A DNA stretch of 38,501 bases from Candidatus Mailhella excrementigallinarum (GTDB lineage Bacteria; Desulfobacterota; Desulfovibrionia; Desulfovibrionales; Desulfovibrionaceae). Numbering within the stretch: the stretch's first letter is position 1; each line of letters starts with the position of its first letter. The notes under the pieces are model-generated. The model was not told the origin of the DNA. It saw only the letters and a program-made list of their open reading frames with translations, and made no database searches. The stretch covers positions 1-38,501 of the forward strand of contig CALUUZ010000030.1 in assembly GCA_944324075.1 (NCBI GenBank), in the 5' to 3' direction. This document shows positions 19,711 to 38,023 of the stretch, piece after piece. The translations under genes and the position numbers were made by a program.

Positions 19711-19738
19711 CGGAACAATTCTTGTTTGGGGGGATGTC

Positions 19739-21445
19739 ATGTCTGTCGGAATGCGTCATTTTGCCATTGTGGGGCTTGCCATGGCCCTGCTGATTGCCGG
19801 AATGCTTGTGCCATCACGGGAAATTGCGCTGGTGTGCGGGGCGGGAGCCCTGGTATGCATGCTTCTTGCCGTTATCATCGTGCGGACGGGGGTCAGCATG
19901 CCTCTGGCGAGCCTAGCCGCCTGGCGGAAAAGGGACTCCGACACAGGTGAGCTTTCGTCCGTTCCGGAGAACCTCGGGCGTGATTTTGCGGAACTGGGCG
20001 CTGTCATGGAAAGTTCGCTGCGGGAGTGTGCCGGATTGCGCGCAGCATGTGAGCAGGAGCGTACTCGCGCCGAAACGGCTGAACAGGCTCAGGAACGTAA
20101 CAGGGAAGAACTGGCCGCATTGCGGGAACAGATCGGGAAGGACGCAGAACTGAGACATTCCATGGCGGACAAGGTTCAGACGCTGTTTTCCCTGTACTGG
20201 TCTCTGGTGCATCCTCTTGCCAAGCTGGTGGGATGCATCGCGCAGGGCGTGGAAGAGCAGCGCTTTCGTTTGGATGAGACAAGCGGGGCGATGTCGCATA
20301 TCACCGATAATGTGGAGCATATTGCCGGCAGCGCGAATACCGCTTCGGAACAGGCGCAGGGGTCGCGTGACGTGGCCATCTCCGGAGCCCGGGAACTGCG
20401 CGTGGCCGTGGATTCCATAGATGAAGTCAAGGAGCGCACGCTGACCCTGAAAGATGCCATGAACAGCCTGGGACAGAAGGCCGAGGCCATCGGGCAGGTG
20501 GTGGGCTTCATTAATGATGTTGCCGATCAGACCAATCTGCTGGCTCTGAACGCCGCCATCGAGGCTGCCCGCGCCGGGGAAGCCGGGCGCGGATTCGCCG
20601 TGGTGGCGGACGAAGTGCGGAATCTGGCGGAAAAAACCATGCAGGCGACCAAGGAAGTAACCGAAGCTGTTTCCAGCATCCAGCGCCAGACGCAGGAAAC
20701 CATTGCCGCTGTGGACAGTTCCGCCGAGCAGACAGTGCGGAGCGCGGAAAGGGCGAGTTCCGCAGGGACTTCCATGGAAGCCATAGTGCAGAATATGGAG
20801 CGGGCCGCGCAGCAGTTGGAACAGATTGCCCACGCGACGGTTGAGCAGTCTCGCAGCAGTCAGGATACCAATGAGTCGCTGTCCGTCATCAGAGGGGTGG
20901 CGCTGGAAACTTCAAGTCATATGGAGAATTTTACGGCAACACTGGTGAAGCTGACAGGTTCGCTGGAAGATCTTGGTGCTGTCGCCATTGCCCTGAAAAA
21001 TGGAGAACATATACAAAGCCCCGCCGGTGATGTGGTTCAATGGACGGATTCTCTTTCAACGGGAATTTCTCTGATTGACGAGCAGCACAAGATGCTGCTG
21101 AACTATATAAATAATCTGTATCATGCCATGCAGCGCGGGGTGACGGATGATATTCTCCTGAATATTCTGGATGTACTGCATGACTATACCGTATCCCATT
21201 TCAGCACGGAAGAGCAGTTCTTCCTGCATTCTGATTACAAGGATTCGGAAAAGCATCGTGAGATTCACCGCAAGTTTACGTCCAGGATTGCGGAGTTTCG
21301 TGATAACATGAAAAACGGTTCCGCACAGGTCAGCATGGAACTGCTGAATTTTCTCAGGGATTGGCTGATTCATCATATCCAGGGAACTGATCACCAGTAT
21401 GTGGACAGCGTGCAGCGGGCTCTGCGCGAGGAACAGCGGGCCTAG
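19739..21445 (+). CDS. Methyl-accepting chemotaxis protein with hemerythrin domain (DcrH-like)
   Basis: A 568-residue chemoreceptor. Two membrane helices (about 7-24 and 28-49) are separated by only a few residues, so there is no periplasmic sensor. A coiled coil (about 75-140) and the signalling domain follow, with the highly conserved hairpin tip [20 protein letters not shown] near residues 257-280. The C terminus (about 434-560) is a bacteriohemerythrin with [17 protein letters not shown] and HHIQGTD, supplying ligands for a di-iron site that binds oxygen. Known relatives such as Desulfovibrio DcrH drive oxygen avoidance. The stop TAG is the first base triplet of a dispersed repeat. Confidence 0.93.
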
Positions 21446-21566
21446 AGCATTTCGCCATTGAAATGTTCTACGGAGTCGAGCAGGGCGAGCCTCCGGCGGA
21501 GGCGTGAAACCTGCGGGCCAGAACACAGGGCCTGGTCGGCAGATATGTTCGAAAGCAACACGCTCT
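21443..21566 (+). repeat. Dispersed intergenic repeat, copy 4
   Basis: TAGAGCATTTCGCC... to ...CAACACGCTCT. The first three bases are the stop codon of the chemoreceptor. It keeps the end palindrome AGAGCATTTC/GAAATGTTCT, CGGAGTCGAGCAGGGCGAG and the CCTGCGGGCC region, but lacks the middle block of full copies. Confidence 0.8.
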
Positions 21567-21582
21567 GGTGAGAGCGTGTTGC
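21555..21582. repeat. Perfect 12-bp hairpin at the end of repeat copy 4
   Basis: GCAACACGCTCT (21555-21566) and AGAGCGTGTTGC (21571-21582) around GGTG. It doubles the right end of the repeat as an inverted copy. No T-run follows, so it is not a typical terminator. Confidence 0.65.
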
Positions 21583-21630
21583 GTCTGAAAAAATCTCTGC
21601 CGTCAGAAAAACTGATCGGTTCCAGAGAAG

Positions 21631-21671
21631 AAAGCTCCCCGTTTTCTCACAGGAAAACGGGGAGCTTTCTT
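21631..21671. terminator. Bidirectional terminator between chemoreceptor and ubiE
   Basis: A perfect 16-bp stem, 21631-21646 with 21653-21668, starts with AAAGCTCCCC and ends with GGGGAGCTTT, around TCACAG. It can serve the chemoreceptor on the plus strand and the methyltransferase on the minus strand. Confidence 0.88.
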
Positions 21672-21720
21672 CATCAACTGCTTCCGCGGCGAACGGAGCG
21701 AGACTCTATCCGCAAGGGGA

Positions 21721-22548
21721 TCAGATACCTTTGACCGCAACATGCAGATTCACCACGCCGAATGTCAGGCTGGTGCATCTGACAAAAGGAAAGCCCGCTT
21801 CCCGGAGTTCTTCGCTGAAGTCGGCAGGACGGGGAAAGTTTTCCACCGTGTCGGCAAGGTAGGCATAGGCTTCGGGGTAACTGCAGATCAACCCTGCGAG
21901 GCGGGGCATGATCACACGCAGATACCAGTGGTAGAAGGGACCGAACAGGGGCGTTTCCACCGGGGCGAATTCAAGGACGCAGGCTCGTCCGCCCGGGACG
22001 AGCACGCGGTGCATTTCCTTCAGCGCGTCTGCACGCGGACGTACGTTGCGGATGCCGAAGGCCATGGTCACGGCGTCGAACGAGGCATCAGGCAGGGGGA
22101 GGCATCGAGCGTCGGCCACCAGGGGAGAGATGCGCTCTTTCAGAGGGCCTTTTGCCTTGCGTTCCATGCCGAAATCCAGCATGGGACCGCAGATGTCGGC
22201 CGCCACAACGCTGAGCCCGGGATGGCGTCGGCACAGGGCGATGCTTACGTCCAGGGTTCCGGCGGCAAGATCCAGCACCCTGCGCGTGGGGCCGGGCACT
22301 ATGGCACGGACGAGATGGCGCCGCCACCAGAAATCCAGCCCCAGGCTGAATGCATGATTTTGCAGATCATACCACGGCGTCAGGCGGCCGAACATATCAC
22401 TGACGGCCCGGGTATGGGCGTCGGCGGAATCTGCATCTGCGTCCGGGGAGTTCTGGTTCTCCGGAGAAAAGATATCCCTGTTCTCCTCCAGGGGAGGCGT
22501 GGTTTCAGACGCGGCAGAATCTGGCAGGAGCTTCTTGCGTTCGCTCAT
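21721..22548 (-). CDS. ubiE: UbiE/MenG-family quinone C-methyltransferase
   Basis: A 275-residue S-adenosylmethionine methyltransferase of the UbiE family, which methylates demethylmenaquinone in the last step of menaquinone synthesis. Seen are VSDMFGRLTPWYDLQNHAFS (about 50-70), motif I VLDLAAGTLDVSIAL, ADICGPML, and AFGIRNVRPRADALKEMHRVLVPGGR, all family hallmarks. Motif I has GTLD where GTGD is usual. A 45-residue acidic N-terminal extension is odd; ATG 22548 has AAGGAC upstream, so it seems real. Menaquinone is needed for anaerobic respiration in this group. Confidence 0.88.
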   Translation of the reverse strand: MSERKKLLPDSAASETTPPLEENRDIFSPENQNSPDADADSADAHTRAVSDMFGRLTPWYDLQNHAFSLGLDFWWRRHLVRAIVPGPTRRVLDLAAGTLDVSIALCRRHPGLSVVAADICGPMLDFGMERKAKGPLKERISPLVADARCLPLPDASFDAVTMAFGIRNVRPRADALKEMHRVLVPGGRACVLEFAPVETPLFGPFYHWYLRVIMPRLAGLICSYPEAYAYLADTVENFPRPADFSEELREAGFPFVRCTSLTFGVVNLHVAVKGI

Positions 22549-22672
22549 CGGTTGTCGTCCTTAAGGTATGAGATCGGAAGTCCGCCGGGTCTGGCGCCGC
22601 GTCCCGGCCCTGGAGGGCGCGCCTTCGCATCCGCCGTGCAGCCTGAGGGCATCGGCTCGCGGACATGCCCGG

Positions 22673-22876
22673 TTGAAAAAATGCTCTGCGGAGTCGGGCA
22701 GGGCGAGACTCATCTCCGCTCTCCTTATCCGCAGGCGTTACGCGCTGACGGCCGTGCGCCGCGAAACCGGAGCAGCCGCAATTCACCTGCGGCGTCAGGC
22801 TCCGGTGGAGGCGTGAAACCTGCGAGACGGAACACGGGAGCTGGCCGGAAGATATTTTCAAATGCAAAACGCTCTA
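22673..22876 (+). repeat. Dispersed intergenic repeat, copy 5 (full length)
   Basis: About 200 bp: end sequence GAAAAAATGCTCTGCGGAGTC, then the CTCATCTCCGCTCTCCTTATC block, GGAGCAGCCGCAATT, GGCGTCAGGCTCCGGTGG, AGGCGTGAAACCTGCG and finally TTTTCAAATGCAAAACGCTCTA. On the minus strand the last bases read TAGAGCGTTTTGC, and this TAG is the stop codon of the 58-residue gene at 22874-23050. Confidence 0.85.
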
Positions 22877-23050
22877 GTTCAGTCCCTGCTGCTGAAGGCG
22901 TTTTCCGCCTTCCAGCATGGTATCCAGTACAACCCTGTACAGGGCAGGGAAAATTTCACCGAAATTGGCGGGAGAAAGCCGCTGTGTTTCGATGAACTTG
23001 ACGGCGATTTCCTTGCTGACCTGCAGGGCCTCTTTTTCCATTCTGTCCAT
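22874..23050 (-). CDS. Small conserved-looking protein of 58 residues, function unknown
   Basis: On the minus strand an ATG at 23050, preceded by GAGGAG, opens a frame of 58 codons ending in TAG. The product begins MDRMEKEALQVSKEIAVKF and ends in GKRLQQQGLN; it is amphipathic and helical, with no membrane segment. The good ribosome site, charge pattern and codon use make it a credible gene. Short proteins with a KEI-VKFIE core are common in proteobacterial genomes, but no function can be given. Its stop codon belongs to the adjoining repeat. Confidence 0.72.
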   Translation of the reverse strand: MDRMEKEALQVSKEIAVKFIETQRLSPANFGEIFPALYRVVLDTMLEGGKRLQQQGLN

Positions 23051-23122
23051 GCGGACTCCTCAGCAGCCGGCGCGTGCCGGGACATGTTCCGTCGCCAAAC
23101 GGCGACAAGAACGGAAGATATT

Positions 23123-23178
23123 GAAAAACCCGCCGGGGGGAATGGCCCCGGCCACCATGGCAGGGAACCGGGCGGGTT
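23123..23178 (-). terminator. Terminator after the class A penicillin-binding protein
   Basis: AACCCGCC (23127-23134) pairs with GGCGGGTT (23171-23178) with further GC pairing inside. On the minus strand the stem is followed by five T. It lies about 36 bases after the stop of the gene at 23214. Confidence 0.75.
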
Positions 23179-23213
23179 AAAGAGAAAGGAACGGAGCCCC
23201 TCCCTCTTTGTTT

Positions 23214-25754
23214 TCAGAAGAGTTCCTTCAGCAGGTCTTCTCCCTGCTGGAGGGCCGGCTTGGGGCCACCCTTGGGGGCGACGGTCGTACCGGTGTCGGG
23301 AGCAGTGCCGGCCATGAACGGCAGGGTAATGCCTTCCACATTGAAGGTCACAATGCCGGGGGGCATGGTGAAATCATCCGGCGGATATGCCTCCAGAGCC
23401 TTTTTCGCATAGTAGACGTAAATGGGAAGCGCCGCGCCGGTGCCGGTTTCACCGCGTCCCATGGGCTGCACCTGATCATAGCCGATGTAGGTTCCGGTGA
23501 CCAGATGCGGAGTGACGGCAAGGAACCACGCATCGGTTTCCCCGTTGGTGGTTCCGGTTTTCGCGCCCAGAGGACGCTTGAAGACATTGGCCCTGCTCGC
23601 CGTGCCGTACTGCACCACGCCCTTGAGCAGACAGGCCATGATATAGGCATTCTGCGGAGAGATTGCCTGCACATATTCCGGTTGCGTCTCGTAGATGGTA
23701 TTGCCCCATGAACCCTGGATGCTCTGGATCAGGCGGGGTTTGACAAGCCTGCCTCCGTTGGCGAAGGCGGTGTACGCGCGAGTCATGGCCAGCGGGGTGA
23801 CCTCTCCCGCGCCGAGGCTCAGGGCAAGCACGGGAGGAAGGGAGTCGGGAAGTCCCAGAGCCAGTGCCCGATCCAGCATGGCCTGTACGCCGATGCTCTG
23901 CGCCACGCGGATGGAGCAGAGATTCCGCGAGCGGGCCAGCGCCCGGTTGAGGCGCATGGGACCTTCAAAACCGCCTTCAAAATTGCGCGGCCGCCAGGGT
24001 TCGTTGCTCATTTCATTGATCAGCAGGATAGGCGCATCCAGAATAATCGAACCGGCAGTGAAACCATGATCCAGCGCGGCAGAGTACAGGATGGGCTTGA
24101 ATGAGGAACCGGGCTGACGCATGGCCTGCGTGGCGCGGTTGAACTGACTGCCCTCGTAGCCGAAAGAGTAGCCTCCTACCATGGCGACCACATCGCCTGT
24201 TTCCGGTTCAATGGAAACCATGGCTCCCTGAATGTCGGGGTACTGCTGAAGTTTGAGCGGAATGACCGTGTCCGTGGTGACCGCCCCCAGAGAGAACGCC
24301 TTTTTGCCCTTGACCGGGGCGGGGGCGGCCAGGGAAACCCATACCACGTCGCCCGGCTCCAGTACCTTGCGCGCGTCGCTGACGACCACGGCTGTCACGC
24401 TGCCTGCAGCGTACTTGTTCGGTTTGCGGGCCCAGCCCATGTCACGCAGCGAGATGACCCCCCTGTAACCCGAACCGAGGGAAAGCTCCGCGCTTTTCTG
24501 CGTAACCGTATTCACCAGAGCCTTGACCCATGCATCGTTTTCCAGCTTGGCGGGCATGAATTCCTGTTTGGCAAGGAAGGCTTCGAACTGCGGCGGCGTC
24601 AGCTTTTCGATGGGACCGCGCCAGCCATGACGCTTGGTGGCATCTTCCAGCCCATGACGCAGGGCTTCGTCCGCGGCCATCTGCTGGACCGGATCCATGC
24701 TGGTGTGCACGGTAAGACCCATCTCATACACGACATCTTCGCCGTACAGTCCGAAATCAAAACCATAAAGGCGGGAATTTTCCTCATTGAAAAGCTCAAT
24801 GAGTTCCCGCCGCACTTCCTCAAGATACCAGCCGCCCTCCCGGCCCATGCCCGAAGGCATGCTCTTGTATTCCAGTTGTTCGTAAATGGCCCTGTCATAC
24901 TGGCCGTCGTCGATCCAGCCCAGATCGCGCATGCGGCGGAGCACCTGCTTCTGGCGGGCCTGCGCGGCCTCGGGATGGCGGTAGGGGTTATAGGTGGAGG
25001 GAGCCTGCGGCAGAGCGGCCAGCAGGGCGGATTCGGCCAGAGTCAGGTCTTTGGCGTGCTTGGCAAAATAGGTTCGGGCTGCCGCTTCGACTCCGTAGGA
25101 ATTGTTGCCGAGAAAAATCTGGTTGAGATACAGGGTCAGGATTTCATCCTTGCTCAGCTGCTTTTCCAGACGATAGGCGAGGATGATTTCCTTGATTTTG
25201 CGCTCGTAGCTCTTTTCCGGCGTGAGCATGAGGCGTTTGACAACCTGCTGGGTGATGGTGCTGCCGCCGCTCGTTTTTTCTCCGGATTTCAGATTGGTGA
25301 GCATGGCCCGTACTATAGCCTTGAGATCCACGCCGGGGTGCTTGTAGAACTCGTCATCCTCAATGGCAAGAAAGGCCTTGGGCAGCCAGGGCGACATTTC
25401 TTCCTGCGTTACGAGAAAGCGTCGTTCCCGATAGAACTGGCCGATCAGACTTCCATCCCGGGCAAGAACATTGGTGACGAGCGGCGGGCGGTAGTCCGCG
25501 ATTTTGCTGAAACTCGGCAGGTCATTGCTGGCCCACAGGTAGACGGCTCCCACAGCTCCGCACCCGAACAGTCCGCCCATCAGGGATGCGCACAGCAGAA
25601 AGCGCAGAACACGGCGTTTTTTGCGGGGGCGGGAGGAACCGGAAGGCTGAGGCCCTTCCGTCTGCTGCCCGGCGGAGCCGGATGGGGCTTCCGTGCCCGG
25701 CAAATCCAAAGTGAGCCTGTCAAGCTGGTCGTGATGCTGTTCTTTGTCTTGCAT
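23214..25754 (-). CDS. mrcA: Class A penicillin-binding protein 1A
   Basis: An 846-residue bifunctional wall enzyme: a cytoplasmic basic N terminus, one membrane helix (about 50-75), a family 51 glycosyltransferase with catalytic Glu132 in IEDDEFYKHPGVD and GGSTITQQV, then a transpeptidase with SSFK (Ser550, Lys553), SRN and KTG (Lys732). It polymerises and cross-links peptidoglycan in the periplasm. ATG 25754 has only a weak ribosome site, but the N terminus is typical. PBP1A-type rather than PBP1B-type by domain order and OB-like insertion between the two domains. Confidence 0.94.
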   Translation of the reverse strand: MQDKEQHHDQLDRLTLDLPGTEAPSGSAGQQTEGPQPSGSSRPRKKRRVLRFLLCASLMGGLFGCGAVGAVYLWASNDLPSFSKIADYRPPLVTNVLARDGSLIGQFYRERRFLVTQEEMSPWLPKAFLAIEDDEFYKHPGVDLKAIVRAMLTNLKSGEKTSGGSTITQQVVKRLMLTPEKSYERKIKEIILAYRLEKQLSKDEILTLYLNQIFLGNNSYGVEAAARTYFAKHAKDLTLAESALLAALPQAPSTYNPYRHPEAAQARQKQVLRRMRDLGWIDDGQYDRAIYEQLEYKSMPSGMGREGGWYLEEVRRELIELFNEENSRLYGFDFGLYGEDVVYEMGLTVHTSMDPVQQMAADEALRHGLEDATKRHGWRGPIEKLTPPQFEAFLAKQEFMPAKLENDAWVKALVNTVTQKSAELSLGSGYRGVISLRDMGWARKPNKYAAGSVTAVVVSDARKVLEPGDVVWVSLAAPAPVKGKKAFSLGAVTTDTVIPLKLQQYPDIQGAMVSIEPETGDVVAMVGGYSFGYEGSQFNRATQAMRQPGSSFKPILYSAALDHGFTAGSIILDAPILLINEMSNEPWRPRNFEGGFEGPMRLNRALARSRNLCSIRVAQSIGVQAMLDRALALGLPDSLPPVLALSLGAGEVTPLAMTRAYTAFANGGRLVKPRLIQSIQGSWGNTIYETQPEYVQAISPQNAYIMACLLKGVVQYGTASRANVFKRPLGAKTGTTNGETDAWFLAVTPHLVTGTYIGYDQVQPMGRGETGTGAALPIYVYYAKKALEAYPPDDFTMPPGIVTFNVEGITLPFMAGTAPDTGTTVAPKGGPKPALQQGEDLLKELF

Positions 25755-25870
25755 GGTATGTCAGAGGCCGCAACGGCCGTTTGCGCTCTTTCCGGAGCGG
25801 AGGTTCACAGTTTTTGAAACCGGCCGCATGGCAGGGACGCCGCATCTGCCGGGATGAGGATACGGAAACG

Positions 25871-25897
25871 AAAAAGGCCGCGCGGAGGAGAGCGCGG
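25871..25897 (-). terminator. Terminator after gatB
   Basis: CCGCGC (25878-25883) pairs with GCGCGG (25892-25897); on the minus strand it is followed by GGCC and five T. It lies about 40 bases after the gatB stop. Confidence 0.75.
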
Positions 25898-25935
25898 AAG
25901 TGCCCGCCGGACTGCGGAACGCCGTATTCACGACG

Positions 25936-27369
25936 TCAACTGCCCAGCAGGCGGGCCAGAATTTCATTGACTACGGCGGGGTTGGCCTTGCCGCGCATTT
26001 CGCGCATCACCTGACCGACAAAAAAGCTTATCAGTTTGGTCTTGCCTCCCCTGTAGGCTTCCGCTTCAGCGGGATTGGCTTCCACCACCTTTCTGACCGC
26101 CGCCTCGATTGCGCCGCTGTCCGATACCTGGGCAAGCCCGTGGGTTTTGACATAGTCTTCGGGCATAACGCCGCCCCGCATGAGTTCAGGGAAGATTTCT
26201 GCTCCGATCTTGGCGCTGATCAGTCCGGAATCGATGATCCTTGCCAGTTCGGCCAGCGCCTCGGGCGAAAGTTTCAGCCCTGCGCTGTCCAGCCCCTGTT
26301 CGTTGATCTGCCGGAGCAGAGGGCCAAGCATGAGATTGGCTATCTTGCGGGATTCAGGGTAGAGGCGGACCGCGTTTTCAAACAGCGCCGCAAGATGCGG
26401 ATCGGCGGCAAGCAGGACGGCGTCGGCTTCCGGGAGCTTCCACTCTTTCATGAAACGGGCCAGACGCGCCTGGGGCAGTTCAGGCTGCGTTTCTTTCCAG
26501 CCGGCGAGTTCCTCCTCGCTGATATCCACAGGCACCAGGTCCGGATCGGGAAAATAGCGGTAGTCCTGCGCATCTTCCTTGCCGCGCATGGCCAGAGTGA
26601 TGTTCCGGGCGGCATCGTACAGGCGGGTTTCCTGCACCACCTTTTCTCCGTCTTCCAGCAGATCGCTCTGGCGCGAAATCTCGTATTCTATGGCCTTCTG
26701 CACATGGCGGAACGAATTGAGATTCTTCAGCTCGGTACGCGTGCCCAGCGTCCTGCTGCCGCGGGGCCGTATGGACACATTGGCGTCGCAGCGGAAACTG
26801 CCTTCCTCCATGTTGCCGTTGCTGATGCCGAGGCTCACCACCATGGCGTGCAGAGCCTTCAGGTAAGCTACGGCTTCCTCGGCGCTGGACATGTCCGGGT
26901 CACTCACGATTTCAATCAGCGGCGTCCCCGCCCGGTTAAGATCCACAAGGCTGATGCGTTCGCCCTGAGGATGAATGTTCTTGCCCGCGTCGTCTTCCAT
27001 GTGGATGCGGGTAATCCCGATCCGCTTGCTTTTTCCGGCCACGGAGATGTCCAGCCGGCCGTGTTCGCACAGAGGCTCCTCAAACTGGGAGATCTGATAA
27101 TCCTTGGGCATGTCGGGGTAGAAATAGTTTTTGCGGGCGAAACGGGAGTGGCGGTTAATCTCCGCGTCGACGGCCAGCGCCATGCGGGCGGCATATTCCA
27201 CCGCCTTGCGGTTCAGCGAGGGCAGCACGCCCGGCATGCCGGCGCATATTTCACAGACGTTGGTGTTGGGCGCGTCGCCGAAAGAGTTGGGGCAGGAGCA
27301 GAACAGCTTGCTTTTGGTGGCGAGATGCACATGAACCTCAAGCCCGATGACGGCTTCATAATCCGACAT
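25936..27369 (-). CDS. gatB: Aspartyl/glutamyl-tRNA amidotransferase subunit B
   Basis: A 477-residue GatB, the kinase/transamidase subunit of the GatCAB complex that converts Glu-tRNA(Gln) or Asp-tRNA(Asn) into the amide form. It opens with [23 protein letters not shown] and has the zinc cysteines CSCPN and CEIC, then the [14 protein letters not shown] and ADP-binding [10 protein letters not shown] blocks, and ends with the YqeY-like tail [15 protein letters not shown] 27369 has CGGAG upstream. gatA and gatC are not adjacent, so the subunits are scattered, as in many bacteria. Confidence 0.97.
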
Positions 27370-27447
27370 GAAATACTCCGGAAAGGCGGCATGCCCGCGG
27401 GGTCTGCCGCGAATTGCGGCGCAAGGCCGTGATGGCGCGAAAAGAGG

Positions 27448-27476
27448 AAAATAGCATGATTTGAATCAGGGCTCAA
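27448..27476 (-). promoter_or_regulatory. Possible promoter of gatB
   Basis: On the minus strand TTGAGC (27476-27471), a 17-base spacer and TATTTT (27453-27448), about 80 bases before the gatB start. Only moderate agreement with the consensus. Confidence 0.35.
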
Positions 27477-27509
27477 CCCATTGAGGCATGCCGGAACCCC
27501 GCGGTTATG

Positions 27510-28439
27510 TCAGGGCTGCGCCTCGTCAGCATATTCGGGTGGAGCGTAGCTGCCCGGGCCGGGCAGGATGAAGCCGCGCTGTCCCAGACGCCGCAGATAC
27601 CAGCGCGGATCGCGTACGAGCAGAGGCATCTTGTCTGTTTCGCCGCGTATCAGCAGGTCGTCTCCCGGCGCGGCCGGAAGGTGTTCCTGTCCGTCAATGG
27701 TGACGAAAACCTGATCCGCGCTCTGCACGGTTCTGAGGCGGATGCAGGCGGAAGAGGGCAGAACGAGAGGGGGAAAGGCCCCGGCAAAGGGGCAGACCGG
27801 TGTGATCATGACGGCGTTCAGCGAGGGAAACACCAGCGGGCCGCCTGCCGAGGCGGCATATGCCGTGGAGCCGAGGGCTGTGGAAACGATGATGCCGTCA
27901 CAGCGCAGGCGGCTCATGAAAATGTCGTCCACGAACAGATCCAGCGTTACCGCGCGCGCTACGCTGCCGCGCGCGAATACCACATCGTTGACGGCCCATC
28001 CGCTGCCGCCTTGCGCGCCGGATTTCCGGACGAGCGCCCAGTGCAGGGCGTTGTGTCCCTGAATTGAAAATTCGCCGTCCATCAGGGCCTGAAGGTGGGG
28101 TTTCCAGTTTTCCGAGGAAATTTCCGTCAGGAAGCCCACCTTGCCGAAGTTGACGCCCAGCAGGGGAATGGCGCACGGCTGGAGTGCCCGGCCCACACCC
28201 AGCATGGTGCCGTCACCGCCCAGAATCAGGGCCGCGTCCATCCCTCTCGCATGCGCTGCGTCAAAGGGCTGCAGGGGAATACCTCCCTCATCCGGCGGGG
28301 GGGCGGATGCGGCGGAGGGGACAAGACATGAGGAAACTCCCCGTTCCCTCAGCCACGCGGAGATTTCCTCTGCTTCACGCATGGCTTCCGCGTTGTGAGC
28401 CTTGACCACAATAAGGAGAGAACGGGGTATGAACTGCAT
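27510..28439 (-). CDS. nadK: NAD kinase
   Basis: A 309-residue ATP- (or polyphosphate-) dependent NAD kinase that makes NADP. It shows GGDGTML (74-80), the conserved NDVV and GSTAYAASAGGPLV blocks and the PVCPFA region. ATG 28439 gives the expected MQFIPRSLLIVVK opening, but no Shine-Dalgarno sequence precedes it; the frame runs open to 28577 without family-like sequence. The gene may therefore use a leaderless or weak start. Confidence 0.93.
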   Translation of the reverse strand: MQFIPRSLLIVVKAHNAEAMREAEEISAWLRERGVSSCLVPSAASAPPPDEGGIPLQPFDAAHARGMDAALILGGDGTMLGVGRALQPCAIPLLGVNFGKVGFLTEISSENWKPHLQALMDGEFSIQGHNALHWALVRKSGAQGGSGWAVNDVVFARGSVARAVTLDLFVDDIFMSRLRCDGIIVSTALGSTAYAASAGGPLVFPSLNAVMITPVCPFAGAFPPLVLPSSACIRLRTVQSADQVFVTIDGQEHLPAAPGDDLLIRGETDKMPLLVRDPRWYLRRLGQRGFILPGPGSYAPPEYADEAQP

Positions 28440-29602: not shown

Positions 29603-29728
29603 CGGCGCGACATCCTCCGGCGGAAGATACGGAAATCAGTCCCGGATATGCGCGAAGACGTTCCGGCTGTCTGATTTTCCGATGCTGTCCGAATCTTCCG
29701 GAGCCCCTTCGTCGTGCGGTGGAATAAA

Positions 29729-29786
29729 ACTGCGGACCGGAATACAGGGTTCCGGCCGGCGACATGTGCAATCGCAAAACGCTCCA
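29729..29786 (+). repeat. Dispersed intergenic repeat, copy 7 (right end only)
   Basis: CTGCGGACCGGAATACAGG, GTTCCGGCCGGC and finally GCAATCGCAAAACGCTCC. The repeat ends five bases before the GGGAG ribosome site of the zinc-ribbon gene at 29798. Confidence 0.75.
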
Positions 29787-29797
29787 GGGAGCGAGTT

Positions 29798-30025: not shown

Positions 30026-30141
30026 CTCCGGCCGGGCCGCGCTTGCGGAACTCCCGGCGGACAAGCCCGTCAACCGAAAACTTTAAAACACTGCCGTCGT
30101 AAAAGGCTTGGGGATGTCTTCCGGCATCCTGTGGAAAACGC

Positions 30142-31110
30142 ATGAAAAAACTTGTCATAGCAACCAGGGGCAGCGCGCTGGCCCTGTGGCAGGCCAATCA
30201 TATCAAGGCTCTGCTGCAGGAGCGGCATGCCCGGCTGGATGTCGAGCTGCTCGTCCTGAAAACCCGTGGAGACGTCATCCTTGACGTGCCGCTGGCCAAG
30301 GTCGGCGGCAAGGGGTTGTTCGTCAAGGAAATAGAGGAAGCCCTGCTTGAAGGGCGGGCAGATCTGGCCGTGCACAGCATGAAGGACGTGCCCATGGTTC
30401 TGCCGGAAGGGCTGACACTGGGCGTGGTGCCGGAACGGGAAGTCAAGAGCGACCTTTTCCTGTCCGAGCGCTATGATGATCTCGCCGCCCTGCCGCCCGG
30501 CGCAACGCTGGGCACCAGCAGTCTGCGGCGTCAGGCCCAGGTGCTGGCCGCGCGTCCCGACATCAGGGTCGCCCTGCTGCGCGGGAACGTGGAAACCAGG
30601 CTGCGCAAGATGCGGGAAGGGCAGTATGACGCGATTATCCTCGCCTGCGCCGGGGTGAAGCGTCTTGGGCTTTCCGCTTCGCGGGAGCATGTGCTGGCCG
30701 CGCCCGGATTTCTGCCCGCTGTGGGGCAGGGGGCGCTGGGTGTGGAAATGCGCTCCGATCGTGAAGACCTGCGTGAGCTGACCGCCTTTCTTGAACATGC
30801 GCCCACGCGTCTCTGTGTGGAGGCGGAACGCGGCTTTCTCGCCGGTCTGGACGGCGGATGCCAAGTGCCCATAGCTGCCGACGCCGAACTGAAAAACGGA
30901 GAAATCCTGCTGGAGGGGCTGGTGGCGGAGCCGGACGGCAGCCGGGTGCTGCGCCGGAGCGTCCGCGGTGATGTGGGAGAAAGCGCAGAATCCGGCGCCG
31001 AGAGGGCGCGGAAACTGGGTGAAGGTCTGGCCCGCGAGCTGCTGGAAGCCGGTGCGCGCGGGATACTTGAGCGCCTGTACGCGGAAGAGAAGGCGGAGGG
31101 TCATTCATGA
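30142..31110 (+). CDS. hemC: Porphobilinogen deaminase (hydroxymethylbilane synthase)
   Basis: A 322-residue enzyme that joins four porphobilinogens into hydroxymethylbilane, feeding sirohaem and haem. It begins [17 protein letters not shown] and has [18 protein letters not shown] and the cofactor cysteine Cys240 in LDGGCQVPI. Sirohaem is the cofactor of dissimilatory sulfite reductase, so hemC is central to energy metabolism here. The stop overlaps the next gene in ATGA, meaning coupled translation with a Lon-like protease. Confidence 0.96.
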
Positions 31111-33584
31111 GCAGCCGCCGCGTCACTCCGCTGCCCGCGGAAAGCCTGCGCCCCCGCTGGCCCGAGGAGCGCATCCCCTGGGCGGACAGCGACGCCGCTC
31201 CCCGCGGGGGCAGGCTGCGTCCGGCCCAGCCCCGGGCACTGCGGGCTCTGGAGCTGGCCCTGAAAATCAAGACGGCGGGATATAACGTCTACCTTGCCGG
31301 GGAGGCGGATCTGGGCCGCACCTACATGCTGCGTGATTTCCTTGTTCCGCGCGCCCGCAGGGAGGCCACGCCGCCCGATCTGCTGTACGTCAATAATTTC
31401 GAGGACGAGGATCGTCCGCTGCTGCTGCGTCTGCCCGCCGGGCAGGGCAGGCAGCTCAAGTCGGCCATGTCCCGTGCCCTTCAGGTTGTCCGCAAGGAAC
31501 TTCCCGGACGTTTCGAGGCCGATTCCTATGTGAAGAAGCGCGGTGAGCTGCTGGACAGCTTCCAGACGTCCCGCGCCCGTCTGCTCAAGGAAATGGACAG
31601 CATGGCGGGAGGGCAGGGCTTCAACCTTGATGTGGACGAGCAGGGCAGCCTGACGCTGTATCCTCTGGTGGAGGGCAGGCGTCTCAGCGAGGAGGAGTTC
31701 GACAAGCTGGATCGCGGTCTGCGCCAGAAGCTCAAGCGCAAGGGGGATGTGCTGCTCCAGACCATGACCGGCCTGGTGCGCAAGCTCTCCCAGGCGGAGC
31801 GCGATTTTCGTTTCCACGAGCGCGATCTGGATCGGGAAGTTGTGGATGCCGTGCTGTCCCGCGTGTTTGACCCCGTGGCCGAGCGGGCATGCCGCAATGC
31901 GGCGGGAGGAGCCGGAGAGGCGGGAGCCTGCGGCGGAGATGCCGCGGCGGCGCTGCGCGGGTTCTTTGACAAGGTGCGGGCCGACATCCTGGAGAATCTG
32001 GACATGTTCCTGCCGCGGGAAGGGCAGGGTGGAGCGCCTCTGCCGCCGGAACCCGCCCTTGCGCCTCCTCCCGAACCGGACTTCGGCCGCTATGATATCA
32101 ATCTGTTTGTGGACAACAGCGGCACAAAGGGCGCGCCTCTCATCGTGGACGATCATCCGACCTTCACCAACCTGCTGGGCTGTGTGGAGAGGGAATCCGA
32201 AATGGGCGCGCTGATCACGGATTTTACCCTGATTAAGGCGGGTTCCCTGCATCGGGCAAACGGCGGCTATCTTGTGCTGCATATCGCGGACGTGCTCCAG
32301 CACCACGGCGCATGGGAAGGGCTTGTCCGCGCCCTGCGCTCCGGTCTGGCGCGCATCGAGGATGCGGGCGACATGCCGGACGGCGCGCGGACCAAGGGTA
32401 TAGAGCCCGAGGCCCTGCCCCTTGATCTCAAGGTGGTGCTGGTCGGGCCGGACGATCTGTATGAAAGCCTGCTGGACAATGACGACCGTTTCGCCAAGCT
32501 GTTCAAGATCAAGGCGCAGATGACCGGGGAAACCCGCCGTTCCGCACCCGAAGTGCGGGCATGGCTGCGCGGCCTCGTCCGCATCATTGATGAGGCGGAG
32601 CTGCTGCCCTTCAGCCGGGATGCCCTTGCCGGGCTGGTGGATTACGCCTCTCTGCTGTGCGAGGATCAGCGCAAGATTTCTCTCAAGTTTCCGCTGCTGC
32701 GCGAGGCCATGATCGAAGCCTCGGCCGTGGCGGCCATGAACGGAGCTCCGAAGGTGGATCGCTCCAGCCTCGCTGAAGCCCTCAAGGGCCGCCTGTATCG
32801 GGTGAATCTGGTGGAAGAGCTGTTTATGGAGGAATATGACCGCGATCTGATCAAAATCCGTACGGACGGGGTGGAAGTCGGGCGCGTCAACGGCCTCTCC
32901 GTGACATGGAACGGCGATTTCGAGTTCGGTCTGCCGCACCAGATTTCCTGCACGGTGGGTGTGGGACATGGCGGCGTTATCGACCTGGAGCGCGAGGCGG
33001 AACTTGGCGGTCCCATCCATACCAAGGCCATGATGATCCTCAAGAGCTATCTGCTTGATCAGTTTGCGCACAACAAGCCTCTGGTGCTTGCGGGCAGCCT
33101 GTACTTTGAGCAGAGCTATTCGGGCATTGAGGGCGATTCCGCCTCCGGGGCGGAACTGGCTGCGCTGCTGTCGGCCATTTCCGGCGTGCCCGTGCGGCGC
33201 TCGCTGGCCTTCACCGGGGCCGTGAACCACTCCGGCGACATCCTTGCCGTGGGAGGAGTCAACCGCAAGATTGAAGGCTTTTTCGCGCTGTGCGCGCGGA
33301 GGGGGCTGAGCGGAGAACAGGGCGTGATTATTCCCCGTGACAATGTGGAACATCTCATGCTCGACGAACGTGTGGTCGATGCCGTGCGCGCGGGTACTTT
33401 CTTCATTTATCCTGTTTCGCACATCAGCGAGGCTCTGGAACTGCTGACCGGCATGAATGCCGGACGCCGCCGCAAGGACGGTTCCTTCACAAGAGGGAGT
33501 CTGTTCCGCCTGGTGGATGAACGTCTGCATGAACTCGGCTGGCAGGCGGAAAATGCTTTCAAGAAGCGGCGCCGGGGGGCCTGA
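31107..33584 (+). CDS. Lon-like protease of the LonH/YcbZ (AAA_32) type
   Basis: An 825-residue protein: N-terminal AAA-like domain and a C-terminal S16 Lon protease domain. The catalytic pair is Ser678 (GDSASG) and Lys721 (GGVNRKIEG), spaced 43 residues as in Lon itself. The Walker A is degenerate: GEADLGRT (65-72) has Arg71 where Lys is needed, so nucleotide hydrolysis is doubtful, as in E. coli YcbZ. A coiled-coil middle section (about 150-260) follows. It overlaps hemC by four bases. Substrate unknown; control of haem-pathway enzymes is only a thought. Confidence 0.9.
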
Positions 33585-33700
33585 GCCGGAACTTCGTCAA
33601 TCCTTTCCCGCGCGGCGCCGGGGGAAAGCGTTCCTGATTCCGCAGCATCCCCCCAGGGAGAGGCGGTCCGCACGTTCCCTGTCCGATGTCGTCGCAGTTT

Positions 33701-33795
33701 GCCTGCAAGCGCGGCGCTCCGGCGTCGCGTGAAGCCTGCCGCGGACCGGAACATGGGGTTCCGGTCCGCAGATACTTTCAATAGCAGAATGTCCC
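33701..33795 (+). repeat. Dispersed intergenic repeat, copy 8 (right half)
   Basis: GGCGTCGCGTGAAGCCTGC, then CGGACCGGAAC/GTTCCGGTCCG, a perfect 11-bp hairpin, and CTTTCAATAGCAGAATGTCC. It ends directly at the AGGAGG ribosome site of the LOG-family gene. Confidence 0.8.
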
Positions 33796-33805
33796 AGGAG
33801 GTTCC

Positions 33806-34465
33806 ATGTCCGGCTCTTCTCAGCAATATGTCATTGATACCCTTTCCGCTCAGGAATCCTGGCGTCTTTTCCGCATCATGGCGGAGATGGTCGAGGGAAT
33901 TGACACGCTTTCCGCCCTGCCTCCCTGCGTTTCCATCTTCGGTTCGGCCCGATCCAGGCCGGAAGACGCCCTGTACCGTCAGACGGAAGAAATCGCACGG
34001 GGACTGGTAGAGGCCGGGTACGGCGTGATCACCGGCGGCGGGCCGGGCCTCATGGAGGCGGGCAACAGGGGCGCGACCGAAGCGGGCGGGCCGTCCGTGG
34101 GGCTGCATATCCAGCTGCCCATGGAGCAGGCCGCCAACCAGTACCTGCAGACGCGCTGCAATTTCAACTACTTTTTTGTCCGCAAGCTCATGTTTGTCAA
34201 ATACGCGGTGGCTTATGTGGTCATGCCCGGCGGCACGGGCACCCTGGATGAGCTGTTCGAGGCATTTGTACTCGTGCAGACCCACCGCATCAAGCCGTTC
34301 CCCATTATTCTCTACAGCCGCGACTACTGGGGCGGCCTGCTGGACTGGATGAAAGACCGCATGGTCGGTCAGGGCTTCCTGCGGGAAGAGGAGCTGGAAC
34401 TGATCACTCTTTGTGATGAGCCGGCCGAAGTGGTGCAGACCATCAGGAAGTACACCATTGTCTGA
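33806..34465 (+). CDS. LOG-family nucleotide phosphoribohydrolase
   Basis: A 219-residue protein of the TIGR00730/LOG group (often misnamed lysine decarboxylase), with GGGPGLMEAGNRGA (77-90) and the signature PGGTGTLDE (141-149). Relatives cleave nucleoside 5'-monophosphates to base and ribose phosphate. ATG 33806 has AGGAGG upstream. The last bases overlap the tadA start, so the two are co-translated, giving a pair of nucleotide- or tRNA-related enzymes. Confidence 0.9.
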   Translation: MSGSSQQYVIDTLSAQESWRLFRIMAEMVEGIDTLSALPPCVSIFGSARSRPEDALYRQTEEIARGLVEAGYGVITGGGPGLMEAGNRGATEAGGPSVGLHIQLPMEQAANQYLQTRCNFNYFFVRKLMFVKYAVAYVVMPGGTGTLDELFEAFVLVQTHRIKPFPIILYSRDYWGGLLDWMKDRMVGQGFLREEELELITLCDEPAEVVQTIRKYTIV

Positions 34466-35003
34466 GCGTCGTGAGGCCGGGCCGTGCGGCTCCGCCGGGG
34501 AGCGTTTCCGCGCTGCCGGGATATGGGGGCCGGTTCCCGCGCCTCCTCCGGGCCGGACATGGAGCGGGCTCATGCGCGAGGCGCTGAGGCTTGCGCGCAA
34601 GGCTGCCGAGGCTGGGGAGGTTCCGGTGGGAGCGCTGGTGGTGGACGATGCCGGAGCCGTCGTGGGGAGCGGACGCAATGAAACCGAGACGCTGCGCGAT
34701 CCTTCCGCTCATGCCGAGGTGCTTGCCCTGCGCCGCGCGGCTGTGCGCGTCGGCAACCACCGGCTGGGCAACTGCGTGCTGGTGGTGACGCTGGAACCCT
34801 GTCTCATGTGCGCCGGGGCGATACGGGAGGCCCGCGTGCGCGGTGTGGTGTACGGCGCGCGCGACGAGCGGGCCGGAGCGGTGGAGTCGCGCCTGGAAGG
34901 TCTTGCCTACGCAGACGGCCCCGCCCCCTGGCATATGGGCGGCGTGGAAAGCGGCCCGTGCGCGGAACTTCTGCGCGCCTTCTTCCGCGTGCGCCGGGAT
35001 TGA
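34458..35003 (+). CDS. tadA: tRNA-specific adenosine deaminase
   Basis: A 181-residue zinc deaminase converting A34 to inosine in tRNA-Arg(ACG). It has HAE (85-87, ligand His85 and proton-shuttle Glu87) and PCLMC (Cys115, Cys118), plus AREARVRGVVYGARD. TTG at 34458, overlapping the LOG gene by eight bases, is preceded by AGGAAG at the right distance; an ATG at 34572 would start at the normal deaminase core. The first 38 residues are therefore uncertain. Confidence 0.88.
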   Translation: MSERREAGPCGSAGERFRAAGIWGPVPAPPPGRTWSGLMREALRLARKAAEAGEVPVGALVVDDAGAVVGSGRNETETLRDPSAHAEVLALRRAAVRVGNHRLGNCVLVVTLEPCLMCAGAIREARVRGVVYGARDERAGAVESRLEGLAYADGPAPWHMGGVESGPCAELLRAFFRVRRD

Positions 35004-35323
35004 AGTCAGATCTGCACGCTTCCGAACCTGGTTTTCCTCCATTCTGGAGCATTTTGCTGTTGAAAGCATCTGCCGGCCGGGCTTGCAGGGACCGGCACAC
35101 AGGTTTCACGTCTCTGCCGGAGATTGGCACAGCAGGGTAACTGCTGTTGCCCGGGGTTCGGCGTCCTTAACCGTGAGTGCGGATCGCCTTGCGGATAAGG
35201 AGAGCAGAGAGAGGAATCTCGTCCCGCTCAACTCCGGGGGTATTCCAAGGCAAAAACGCTCCGGCCCGTTTCCCGCCGTCTCCGGACACGGCGGAGTTCA
35301 GGCGCTTCTGCTGGAGGCTTTTC
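35004..35323. other. Interval between tadA and the magnesium ATPase
   Basis: About 320 bases, mostly taken by an inverted copy of the dispersed repeat. No gene, terminator, or M-box-type magnesium riboswitch was recognised. The promoter for the ATPase, if here, must lie within or after the repeat. Confidence 0.55.
35044..35265 (-). repeat. Dispersed intergenic repeat, copy 9 (inverted, full length)
   Basis: Begins with TGGAGCATTTTGCTGTTGAAAG. The reverse complement of 35190-35265 reads through GGAGTTGAGCGGGACGAG and the CTCTCCTTATCCGCAAGGCG block, as in copies 2 and 5. With the AGGTTTCACG part (35101-35110) it spans about 220 bp. Confidence 0.75.
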
Positions 35324-37975
35324 ATGAATACAGTCCAGAGCACCCATGAGCGCATAAAGAAGTATGCCCAGTCGGATATTTCCGTCCTTTTTCAGGAGCT
35401 GCGAATTTCCGGCAAGGGATATACGGAAAGAGAAGCATGTGAAAATCGTCTGAAATACGGGATAAACAGTTCTGTCAGCATGCGGGGCGGCACGGTGCTG
35501 TCGTGCATGTACAGATCGTTCATTAATCCGTTTACAGTTACGCTGCTTGTCATTTCAGCGCTTTCATTCAGTGTTTATATTTTTCAGGAAGAGAGCGCAG
35601 TGCGCAACGGCATGACCACGCTGATCATGCTCAGCATGGTCATGATGAGCGGGATTCTGCGTCTTGTCCGGGAACTGCGGGCAAAACGCGCCGCTGATCG
35701 CGTTGTCCGCGCCGCGGATGCTTCCTTGCCGGTACTCCGGGACGGAAAATGGGGGCCGCTGCCCGCAGGAGAACTTGTGGTCGGAGATACGGTACGTCTG
35801 ATTGCAGGCGGACGTGCCCCTGCGGATATCCGTCTGCTCGACGCTTCCGACCTTTATGTCTCGCAGGCCGCGCTGACGGGAGAACATGCGATACAGGAAA
35901 AGCGTGCGGAGAGCTTTCCGGAGTGTCCTGCCAGCCTCGGAGCCTGCCGCAATATTGTTTTTGCGGGATCACTGATTGTGAGCGGCGAGGGAACCGGCAT
36001 CGCATTGGCCGTGGGCGGGGATACGGCCCGTGGTGACATGCCGGACATGGCGCGAGGCCGCGGGAACAGCTTCAACCGCGGCGCCGCCTCCATAGCATGG
36101 GTTCTGCTCCGTTTCATGGCCGTTCTGGTGCCGGTTATCTTTATTGTCTGCGGACTGGTGCGGGGCGACTGGGGACTGGCGCTTCCCTTCGCTCTTGCCG
36201 TGGCCGTGGGGCTTGTTCCCGAGATGCTGCCCATGGTGATCGCCGCCTGCCTTGCCAGGGGCAGCGCCGTCATGAAAAGGCAGAGGGTCATCGTCAAGGA
36301 TATGAACGCGATGCAGAGCTTCGGCAGCATGGATACGCTCTGCGTGGACAAGACGGGAACCCTGACCAGCGATTCCATTCTGCTGGAATACTATATGGAC
36401 ATTCTCGGCAATGAGAGCGCAGAGACGCTGGATTATGCCTATCTGAACAGTCTGTATCACACCGGTGCCCGGAATCCTCTGGACGCGGCCGTTCTCCGGT
36501 GCCGCTCCATGCCGGGAAAGGAAGGACACTTTGCATCTCTGGCAAGGCGATATCCCAGGCTGGATGAGCAGCCTTTTGATCATGAGAGACGCTTGGCAAG
36601 TGTTCTTGTGCGGGGAGAGCGGGAAAATCTCCTGATTGTCAAGGGCGGCGTGTGGGATGTCTGCGGGCGCTGCACGCATGCCGCCTACCGGGGAGAAAGG
36701 AAGGATATGAGGGAAGGCGGCCTTGAAGGGGTTCGTGCCGTGGCGGATGAGCTGCTGAAGGACGGCATGAAGGTTCTGGCCGTGGCATACCGTTCTATGG
36801 GGCAGGCCTGCACGTGCTCTGCGGAGGACGAGAACGGCCTTGTTCTTGTGGGGTATCTGGCCTTTTTCGATACGCCCAGGAAGAGTGCGGCCGGTGCCCT
36901 GCGCAGGCTGCGCGAACTGCATGTGGACGTCAAGGTTCTGACCGGCGATCAGCGGGCTGTGGCCGTTTCCGTCTGTCGCAGGCTGGGCATGGATGCCGCG
37001 CGGGTACTGACAGGCCGGCAGATGGAGCTGATGAGGGAGAATGAACTGCCCGTGCATATCGAACGGACGGAGATATTTGCCGAGCTTTCACCCCGGCAGA
37101 AGGCCCGCATCGTCAGCATGCTGCGGGATAACGGGCATACTGTGGGTTTTCTGGGCGACGGCATGAATGACCTCCCCGCCATGGCCGTGGCGGATGTGGG
37201 CATTTCGGTGGACACTGCGGTGGAGACCGTGCGGGAAAGCTCGGATGCAATCCTGCTGGAAAAAGATCTGAATGTGCTGGAAAGGGGGATTCTGGAAGGG
37301 CGCAGGACATTCGTCAACATGTCGAAATACATCAGGATTACCGCCTCTTCGAATTTTGGAAACATCTGCTCGATCGTCGCCGCCAGCCTGTGTCTCCCGT
37401 TCCTGCCCATGACTGCCGTGCAGATACTTCTGCTGAATCTTCTGTACGACACGCTGTGTCTCGCGCTTCCCTGGGACAGGGTGGCTGTCGGGCTTCGCGG
37501 GCGGCCCGGGGAGTGGTCGGGAGATACGCTTGGGCGCTTCATGCTGTTCTTTGGCCCTCTCAGCTCCATTTTTGATCTTGTCACGTTTGCGTTCCTGTAT
37601 TTTGTTCTGTGCCCGTCCATGTATGGAGGCTCCTTCGGTTCGCTCCCCCCGGTCGGACAGGCCGGATTCATCATGGCCTTTCATACCGGCTGGTTTCTGG
37701 AGTCCTTGTGGACGCAGACCCTGATTCTGCACCTGCTCAGAACCGGAAGGCTGCCCCTGCTGCAAAGCCGTCCGGCTCTGCCCGTACTTGCCGTCGCGGG
37801 GGCAGGCATCACCCTGTTCACGGCCATGACGTTCACCCCGCTGGGAACCATGCTGGGACTCACTGCACTGCCCCCCCTCTACTTTGCCTTTCTGGCCCTG
37901 GTCGTTCCGGCATACATGCTGCTGGTTTCCGGCGCCAAGGCCCTTTATGTCCGCTGGAACCGCGATTTGATATAG
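35324..37975 (+). CDS. mgtA: P-type magnesium-transporting ATPase (P3B, MgtA-like)
   Basis: An 883-residue P3B-type ATPase importing Mg2+. It has the actuator TGEHA (TGE loop), the phosphorylation motif DKTGT with Asp342, TGDQ, and GDGMND. Helix 4 reads GLVPEMLPMVIA and helix 6 LLNLLYDTL...PWD, both typical of MgtA and not of calcium or heavy-metal pumps. ATG 35324 has TGGAGG upstream; the longer open frame from 35177 runs through a repeat and is excluded. The DNA-binding gene downstream on the same strand may regulate it. Confidence 0.92.
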   Translation: MNTVQSTHERIKKYAQSDISVLFQELRISGKGYTEREACENRLKYGINSSVSMRGGTVLSCMYRSFINPFTVTLLVISALSFSVYIFQEESAVRNGMTTLIMLSMVMMSGILRLVRELRAKRAADRVVRAADASLPVLRDGKWGPLPAGELVVGDTVRLIAGGRAPADIRLLDASDLYVSQAALTGEHAIQEKRAESFPECPASLGACRNIVFAGSLIVSGEGTGIALAVGGDTARGDMPDMARGRGNSFNRGAASIAWVLLRFMAVLVPVIFIVCGLVRGDWGLALPFALAVAVGLVPEMLPMVIAACLARGSAVMKRQRVIVKDMNAMQSFGSMDTLCVDKTGTLTSDSILLEYYMDILGNESAETLDYAYLNSLYHTGARNPLDAAVLRCRSMPGKEGHFASLARRYPRLDEQPFDHERRLASVLVRGERENLLIVKGGVWDVCGRCTHAAYRGERKDMREGGLEGVRAVADELLKDGMKVLAVAYRSMGQACTCSAEDENGLVLVGYLAFFDTPRKSAAGALRRLRELHVDVKVLTGDQRAVAVSVCRRLGMDAARVLTGRQMELMRENELPVHIERTEIFAELSPRQKARIVSMLRDNGHTVGFLGDGMNDLPAMAVADVGISVDTAVETVRESSDAILLEKDLNVLERGILEGRRTFVNMSKYIRITASSNFGNICSIVAASLCLPFLPMTAVQILLLNLLYDTLCLALPWDRVAVGLRGRPGEWSGDTLGRFMLFFGPLSSIFDLVTFAFLYFVLCPSMYGGSFGSLPPVGQAGFIMAFHTGWFLESLWTQTLILHLLRTGRLPLLQSRPALPVLAVAGAGITLFTAMTFTPLGTMLGLTALPPLYFAFLALVVPAYMLLVSGAKALYVRWNRDLI

Positions 37976-37985
37976 GGTGTCCACC

Positions 37986-38023
37986 TTGAACCCCGGATGT
38001 GTTTTCAATAACAACATGCTCAG
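37986..38023 (+). repeat. Dispersed intergenic repeat, right-end fragment
   Basis: TGTTTTCAATAACAACATGCTC matches the right end of copy 6 (TTTTCAATAACAAGACGCTC). It ends about seven bases before the ribosome binding site of the gene at 38038. Confidence 0.7.

Follow-up and report, generated by a model that had tools for sequence, protein, structure and literature searches.

Repeats with IS630-like ends in a Desulfovibrionaceae genome: a very probable non-autonomous element seated in stop codons

The RIME, ABC, and Bru-RS repeats of Rhizobiales are intergenic mosaics of palindromes, and in that respect they are similar to the repeat described here. REP and BIME sequences are by definition short units without long inverted ends; the units of our repeat, at 128 to about 187 bp and with inverted ends, fall outside this definition.

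The repeat unit of pneumococcus (RUP) is described as a 107-bp intergenic sequence of about 110 copies, with TA ends and terminal repeats like those of IS630-Spn1 (PMC2229807, PMC3049150). Going by the parts of the literature that describe it, our repeat is like RUP in its intergenic position, its TA ends, and terminal repeats that resemble those of an IS630 transposon. It is also like the Correia/NEMIS elements of Neisseria, as these are portrayed in the relevant section, in TA ends, terminal repeats, and target duplication, with base-paired transcripts described on the Neisseria side (PMC2229807). For QMITE2 of Coxiella burnetii, one strain is described in which a copy that lies at the 3′ end of the gene enhC is bordered by a stop codon (PMC5896051). 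The accessible portions of the open-licence literature on Desulfovibrio and IS630 MITEs, intergenic repeats, stop-codon insertion, and covariation yielded no description of the present family.

The repeat family and its copies in the window

The window, as we use the term, is the whole stretch of 38,501 nucleotides that was analysed. An initial annotation had proposed a family of structured intergenic repeats, present about nine times in it and named at ten places, and all ten places do hold related pieces, in both orientations: two complete canonical copies, two long variants, one internally deleted copy, and five fragments. These are given below, with the one gene whose end coincides with a copy.

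1949..2010, minus strand: fragment, left end; profile positions 3-65, E 9.5e-7
9074..9157, plus strand: fragment, left end and hairpin 2, then inserted module; profile positions 2-51
9474..9644, minus strand: complete canonical copy, 171 bp, TA at right end; 181.7 bits, model 1-174
19544..21445, plus strand: open reading frame with chemotaxis (MCP) and hemerythrin domains (Pfam PF00015, PF01814), whose stop is the terminal TAG of the element
21443..21567, plus strand: internally deleted copy, both ends retained; 105.1 bits, two profile pieces (1.7e-9 and 9.2e-19)
22645..22876, plus strand: copy into which a hairpin module is inserted (about 22712-22757), CTCTA at right end; 135.3 bits
28665..28838, plus strand: complete canonical copy, 174 bp; 203.8 bits, model 1-174
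29718..29786, plus strand: fragment, right part; profile positions 104-173
33684..33796, plus strand: fragment, right two thirds; profile positions 65-172
35045..35263, minus strand: long variant copy, 219 bp, inserted module as in 22645..22876; 78.8 bits, profile 35046-35261
37991..38023, plus strand: fragment, right terminal repeat only, weak; inverted-repeat match, E 0.32

A profile built from 24 full copies recovered every place but one at E ≤ 1e-6, nine in all, and nothing in the reversed window at E ≤ 1; the tenth place (37993-38023, 31 bp) is weak (E 0.32), yet it is an inverted-repeat match to the right end. The left end of copy 22645..22876 is worn and its start uncertain (22645-22675), other bounds being 22660-22876 and the profile match 22675-22875. 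Positions 9093-9157 are 92% identical to 22680-22744, and an extra hairpin module (CTCCGCTCTCCTTGTCCGCAAGCG..) is repeated at 9125-9157 and 22712-22757, in long variants. Weak profile matches at 18641-18729 (E 5e-4) and 14048-14089 (E 1e-3) may be old fragments or chance hairpins. The window also contains two IS200/IS605 tnpA genes (295-753 and 988-1503), and ahead of the first lies the sole Rfam match of the window at the gathering threshold, to STnc490 (165-285, 103.5 bits).

The suggestion that the copies lie only between genes was examined in the window and held in large part. Eight of the ten open reading frames tested have Pfam support, and the copies avoid such frames with two exceptions, at 21443-21445, where the terminal TAG is the stop codon of ORF 19544-21445, and at 35177, where copy 35045-35263 covers the first codons of ORF 35177-37975, a frame whose Pfam match begins at residue 65. 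The full length had been put at 200–220 bp; most full copies instead measure ~165–187 bp and fall into two size classes, one around 170 and the other around 180, and the two window copies of 217–219 bp are long variants with the extra module.

At one locus of the genome a NAD kinase is 80% identical to that of Candidatus Mailhella merdavium, which suggests Mailhella as the genus; NCBI taxonomy puts Mailhella in the Desulfovibrionaceae. Copy number was determined over 3,709,134 bases in 51 contigs. A 24-base right-end pattern, allowing at most 3 mismatches, was found 106 + 99 = 205 times, while the same pattern read backwards was found 0 + 0 times; 205 right ends in a 3.7-Mb genome clearly dispose of the alternative that only a few copies exist. 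With a covariance model of the element (R1), all 150 candidates scored, among 3693, matched at E ≤ 1.0e-18, which gives at least 150 matches. Mean identity among 24 aligned copies was 83%. We found no Rfam match to the element, either in the window at the gathering threshold or in five element-bearing loci at E ≤ 0.1, and no DNA match to it among plasmids and phages (nor, among plasmids, to its relative in genome G034).

The element is ~165–187 bp long, with inverted ends of the form TA, then GAGCRTTTYG..TTGAAA, and its two ends are mutually inverted over about 20 bases. In the consensus, TA is followed by GAGCATTTCGCTCATGAAATGCTC.., which is the left hairpin; a second hairpin is formed by CTTCAGTC..GACTGAAG, a third has its inner stem around GCCGCAATTCACTTGCGGC, and the right end is ..ATATTTTCAATAGCAAAACGCTC followed by TA (the right end of the window's element reads TAGAGCRTTTTGYTATTGAAAAT). 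A further hairpin around GCCGGAAC..GTTCCGGC, placed between the third one and the right end, occurs in this genome and in the G006 copy and is absent from most other genera. The inverted ends, the GCCGGAAC/GTTCCGGC hairpin, and the missing internal blocks had all been recognised initially and are confirmed. Tandem or nested copies of the same family occur at L113:1256-1437, L076:1501-1681, and L009. A second dispersed repeat family is present in the genome (L107:2031-2200 and other loci), for which BLAST gave 36 distinct alignments within about 1.03 Mb of its sequence and no match in the window; one copy of the present element, L002, is inserted within it.

Target sites and stop codons

In the younger families that we found in other genomes, most ends carry TA, and the target there is YTAR. 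Among 26 copies in genome G034, TA was present at the left end of 25 and at the right end of 24, with T or C before it in 25 and A or G after it in 24. Of 15 copies in G274, 14 had TA at one end and 12 at the other, with Y before and R after in all 15; for the 15 copies in G104 the corresponding numbers were 13 and 14 for TA and 13 and 13 for Y before and R after. In the genome of the window, 132 full hits, which include 8 opposite-strand doubles and thus represent 124 copies, show conservation that runs inward from GAGC with a sharp boundary, just outside which lies a dinucleotide that is mostly YR. Beyond this dinucleotide, Y occurs on the left of 105 of the 132 hits and R on the right of 115. 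The outermost dinucleotides are TA at only 49 and 34 of the 124 ends, being otherwise often TG, CA, or CG.

In this genome the terminal dinucleotides of a copy were neither identical nor complementary to each other more often than by chance: where both were YR, which held for 98 copies, they matched in 28 cases against 28.1 expected. When exactly one end of a copy was a stop-codon end, the other was TA in 5 of 35. The terminal dinucleotide positions are more variable than unpaired internal ones (0.615 versus 0.856), so plain decay is not the full answer for the lost terminal TA. Avoidance of CTAG is a known phenomenon, and in loci of this genome CTAG occurs 52 times against 120 expected, about 2.3-fold too rarely (it is also low in G034, 70 against 104). 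At left ends, where this was compared, TA was retained in 14 of 68 cases after C and in 16 of 40 after T (p 0.04), and CTAG avoidance may thus add to the loss of terminal TA. The best scores belong to copies that have TA on either side, and CTAG is scarce in the genome, so that age and CTAG avoidance would be likely reasons for the mismatched ends. Longer target duplications found no support: a single one of the offsets and lengths tried passed |z| 2.5, and it was located inside the element.

Uninterrupted sites were sought by comparing the joined flanks of 155 copies (25 from G034 and 130 from the genome of the window, opposite-strand doubles included) with available DNA. TA was found at the uninterrupted paralogous place for L008 versus L012, L131, and L038 and for L071 versus L012, and it adjoins an alignment gap in L140 versus L075; three copies of this genome (L008, L071, L140) therefore sit where paralogous repeats carry TA. 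Other paralogous empty places lacked it: L096 versus L099, an 89% identical paralogue, has TG, L181 versus L185 in G034 has CG, L008 versus L021 has CA, L140 versus L021 has none, and L002 versus its repeat family has TTG. The comparisons for L020 and L024 gave no clear reading, and L113 and L076 are positioned within other copies of the same family. A module similar to CTCCGCTCTCCTTGTCCGCAAGCG.. is the insertion target of the element in L008 and L071.

The element is seated in stop codons more often than random TA sites are. A long open frame stops exactly at the element end in 39 of the 124 full copies, compared with 38 of 1035 random TA sites (p 2e-20). Relative to non-coding TA (a comparison that omitted 54 of the 124 joined sites for lying inside some 150-codon open frame; at this G+C a good number of such frames may be spurious), the elements gave 41 stop and 29 other sites and the control 172 of 702 (p 1e-8). 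When the control was restricted to YTAR, 27 of 50 stood against 26 of 86 (odds ratio 2.7, p 0.01). The excess thus shrinks yet persists under stricter controls. Start codons adjoining the ends showed no excess (32 of 124 versus 253 of 1035).

The reading frame points the same way. At the 241 ends examined, 81 frames of at least 150 codons reach the element, of which 50 enter in the frame that reads TA first, the other two frames accounting for 21 and 10 (p 2e-7 for 50 of 81 versus one third). For frames of at least 200 codons, the TA-first frame makes up 42 of 64 at elements and 202 of 509 at random TA, and the same frame is taken in 10 of 12 cases in G034, 6 of 8 in G274, and 6 of 7 in G104. 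Of the 50 TA-first cases, 43 have a stop as the first codon at the element, and this stop is TAG except in two cases with TGA; the stop is rebuilt as TAG because the element begins with G, after TA. ORF 19544-21445 is the example of such seating in the window. The base on the far side of the element, which would complete the old stop, is A or G at 41 of 43 stop-codon ends and at 160 of 198 other ends (p 0.02), the latter being common because YTAR is preferred anyway; in G034, G274, and G104 this base adds little since it is nearly always A or G at any end. We infer that the harmlessness of such insertions and the preference for YTAR together cause the seating in stop codons.

Relatives and transposases

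At E ≤ 1e-6 the R1 model found the element in 3 of 59 genomes including its own, the others being G006 and G034, the latter of another genus. Its occurrence within the genus is patchy, G006 being 1 of 18 other genomes. The copies in G034 measure 128 bp, with a mean identity of 96%; the element is short and without a transposase gene there, as it is in its mostly 165–187-bp form here. A second model (R2) was built from 25 of the G034 copies. R2 detected relatives in at least 26 of 149 genomes of the family, and in at least 13 of its 44 genera, at E ≤ 1e-6, and, at E ≤ 1e-7, in at least 35 of 297 genomes of the order; each of the 35 carriers listed belongs to the same family. These counts are lower bounds because the best 23 (family) and best 11 (order) candidates per genome were scored, with strict filters; R2 recovers one or two copies in the genome of the window and none in G006. 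Searched singly, G274 and G104 gave 37 and 81 matches at E ≤ 1e-6, and the mean identity among 15 copies from each was 95% and 94%. The families in G034, G274, and G104, which represent three other genera, are thus younger, at about 95% identity, and the copies in the genome of the window, at 83%, look old by comparison.

The initial annotation had left the choice between a MITE and a REP/BIME-like family, and the latter would imply palindromes spread by a REP-associated tyrosine transposase (RAYT). Hundreds of palindromic copies, arranged in mosaics, would suit such a process, as would the Y1_Tnp matches of the genome, which number nine and include two from the window. Five of the nine proteins were classified, however, and all five scored above the IS200 cut-off and at 25.7–38.3 on the RAYT model, below its cut-off of 80 bits; they are IS200-type enzymes. 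The element also has long terminal inverted repeats and TA targets, and we know of no Y1 enzymes that produce either. We consider spread by a RAYT highly improbable, and the five proteins classified give this half of the earlier reading no support. The MITE half stands on the inverted ends, the TA target, some paralogous empty sites, and the IS630 ends in related genera that we turn to here.

In agreement with the earlier remark that no transposase for the repeat is visible, a search of its genome for DDE_3 and Y1 domains gave 0 DDE_3 matches; none were found in G006, and four were found in G034. No parent transposase was thus detected by DDE_3 in the genome of the window, and relics do not require one. 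All three of the transposases tested by NCBIfam scored above the cut-off of the IS630-family equivalog. (Two IS630 transposase genes of G034, L190:366 and L191:1404, are split over two frames with an eight-A run near the junction, as in programmed frameshifting.) A protein search with the transposase found relatives in 12 of 149 genomes, and relatives on plasmids were all under 60% identity. Taking both samples of 149 genomes as identical, which we assume from their equal numbers and handles, the element is present in 8 of the 12 transposase genomes and in 18 of the 137 others (p 1e-4). Against an IS630 parent, 18 of the 26 element-bearing genomes had no match to the transposase query.

The ends of these transposons resemble those of the element (for example TAGAGCATTTTAACTTTGAAA). 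Within 130 nt behind the transposase match, inverted TAGAGCA was found at 13 of the 28 loci with enough sequence (30 loci in all); 12 of these lie 16–24 nt from the end of the match, and one (L246) is a neighbouring copy of the element. Within 450 nt in front of the match, TAGAGCA was found at 11 of 25 loci, 10 of them at 364–378 nt. Four scrambled-word controls gave 0, 0, 0, and 0 behind and 1, 0, 0, and 1 in front. The end motif was absent behind the gene at 15 of the 28 loci, which counts against the relation. Examples of transposon ends are TAGAGCATTTTAACTTTGAAAAG (G097), TAGAGCATTTTAATATTGAAAA (G033), and TAGAGCAATTTCGCTTTGAGA (G160), and two transposons of G034 have TAAAGCA in place at one or both ends. 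The terminal inverted repeats of the element thus match in kind those of IS630 transposons in other genera of the family.

IS5-type groups have short TA-containing targets, and by such target rules the YTAR flanks on both sides would also suit a MITE of such a DDE family. IS630 transposons with ends of the same kind at a fixed distance from the gene, in several element-bearing genomes, argue against that origin, and we regard it as extremely improbable. From the element ends, the YTAR and TA targets, and the same kind of ends on IS630 transposons of related genera, we conclude that the repeats are very probably copies of a non-autonomous element (MITE) of the IS630/Tc1-mariner type.

Internal hairpins, possible roles, and known systems

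To examine pairing we aligned one copy per genome from 13 genomes, which span 7 genera. Of the cells in the third hairpin, 94.8% are paired, compared with 30–46% when the partner is slid by 1–3 columns; 15 cells are changed on both sides, where shuffling gave a mean of 4.5 (0 of 500 shuffles as high), and 6 pairs contain such a change (2 of 500 as high). Over all 31 pairs of the RNAalifold structure, 90.2% are paired, with 37 cells changed on both sides versus 13.0 (sd 3.1) in shuffles (0 of 500) and 14 pairs with both-side change versus 8.0, the pairs being the sturdier measure because this very alignment also supplied the structure and kinship can inflate counts. Across the 7 genera sampled, the internal hairpins therefore keep their pairing while their sequence changes. 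They may serve transposition, or they may act on the message.

Such pairing could also mean that the repeat is a structured RNA or DNA element kept for the host, as a 3′ UTR stabiliser, terminator, or RNase III site, and that it only seems mobile, having spread by recombination. The 14 of 31 pairs, in internal and terminal helices, that change on both sides and stay paired are in keeping with this, as is the position directly behind stop codons. Near-alike copies at unrelated TA sites, IS630-like ends, patchy occurrence, and the lack of an Rfam match are difficult to reconcile with it, and we find it very unlikely as an account of the family, even though host function and mobility are compatible with each other.

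For the IS630-type MITE that we favour, we propose that an IS630-family transposase of the type found in related genera would cut the element out and paste it into the TA of YTAR, duplicating TA. Since the element starts with G, its insertion into a TAA or TAG stop codon would leave TA plus G, that is TAG, and so preserve the gene end; the hairpins of the element would then follow the coding sequence immediately, within the 3′ untranslated region of the message. On this model IS630 enzymes would mobilise the element in trans, and TA would have been duplicated in this genome as well. Two features exceed what an ordinary MITE shows, namely the seating in stop codons and the retained internal structure; together with the occurrence in many genera of a single family they mark this element as a variant. 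It is conceivable, though doubtful, that this is a harmless, long-lived MITE lineage in one bacterial family, whose ends rewrite stop codons and whose internal hairpins, maintained through compensatory change in at least seven genera, function within the 3′ untranslated region of the messages that it follows, which would make it a spreading 3′-end module rather than plain junk.

These results link hundreds of repeats in a Desulfovibrionaceae genome to a likely parent transposon and offer a rule, simple in sequence terms, that would let a mobile element enter stop codons without altering the protein. They also provide a natural set of 3′-end hairpins usable for testing effects on message stability, and the covarying internal hairpins make transposition versus host service a testable question.

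Known systems share parts of this picture. IS630-family transposons of G034, G068, G026, G033, G097, G127, and others have ends that start with TARAGCA and a similar inner part, as the element does, but they carry a transposase and have about 1 kb between their ends, so that the element has the ends alone in common with them. For Correia/NEMIS, the structure usually given in the available account is a stem loop formed from the two ends, whereas here internal hairpins are kept too (PMC2229807). The stop codon at the border of QMITE2 is, in the section that reports it, a single case that arose by indel, whereas here about a third of full copies are so placed, by the form of their ends (PMC5896051). 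RUP is said, in the portions at hand, to occur near or in IS elements, and the window's element is seated in stop codons (PMC2229807, PMC3049150). Unlike RUP as described there, the element has a host genome in which no parent was found, and it has relatives in at least 13 of 44 genera. The element would nevertheless stand to the IS630 transposons of related genera in the relation that these descriptions state for RUP and IS630-Spn1 (PMC2229807, PMC3049150).
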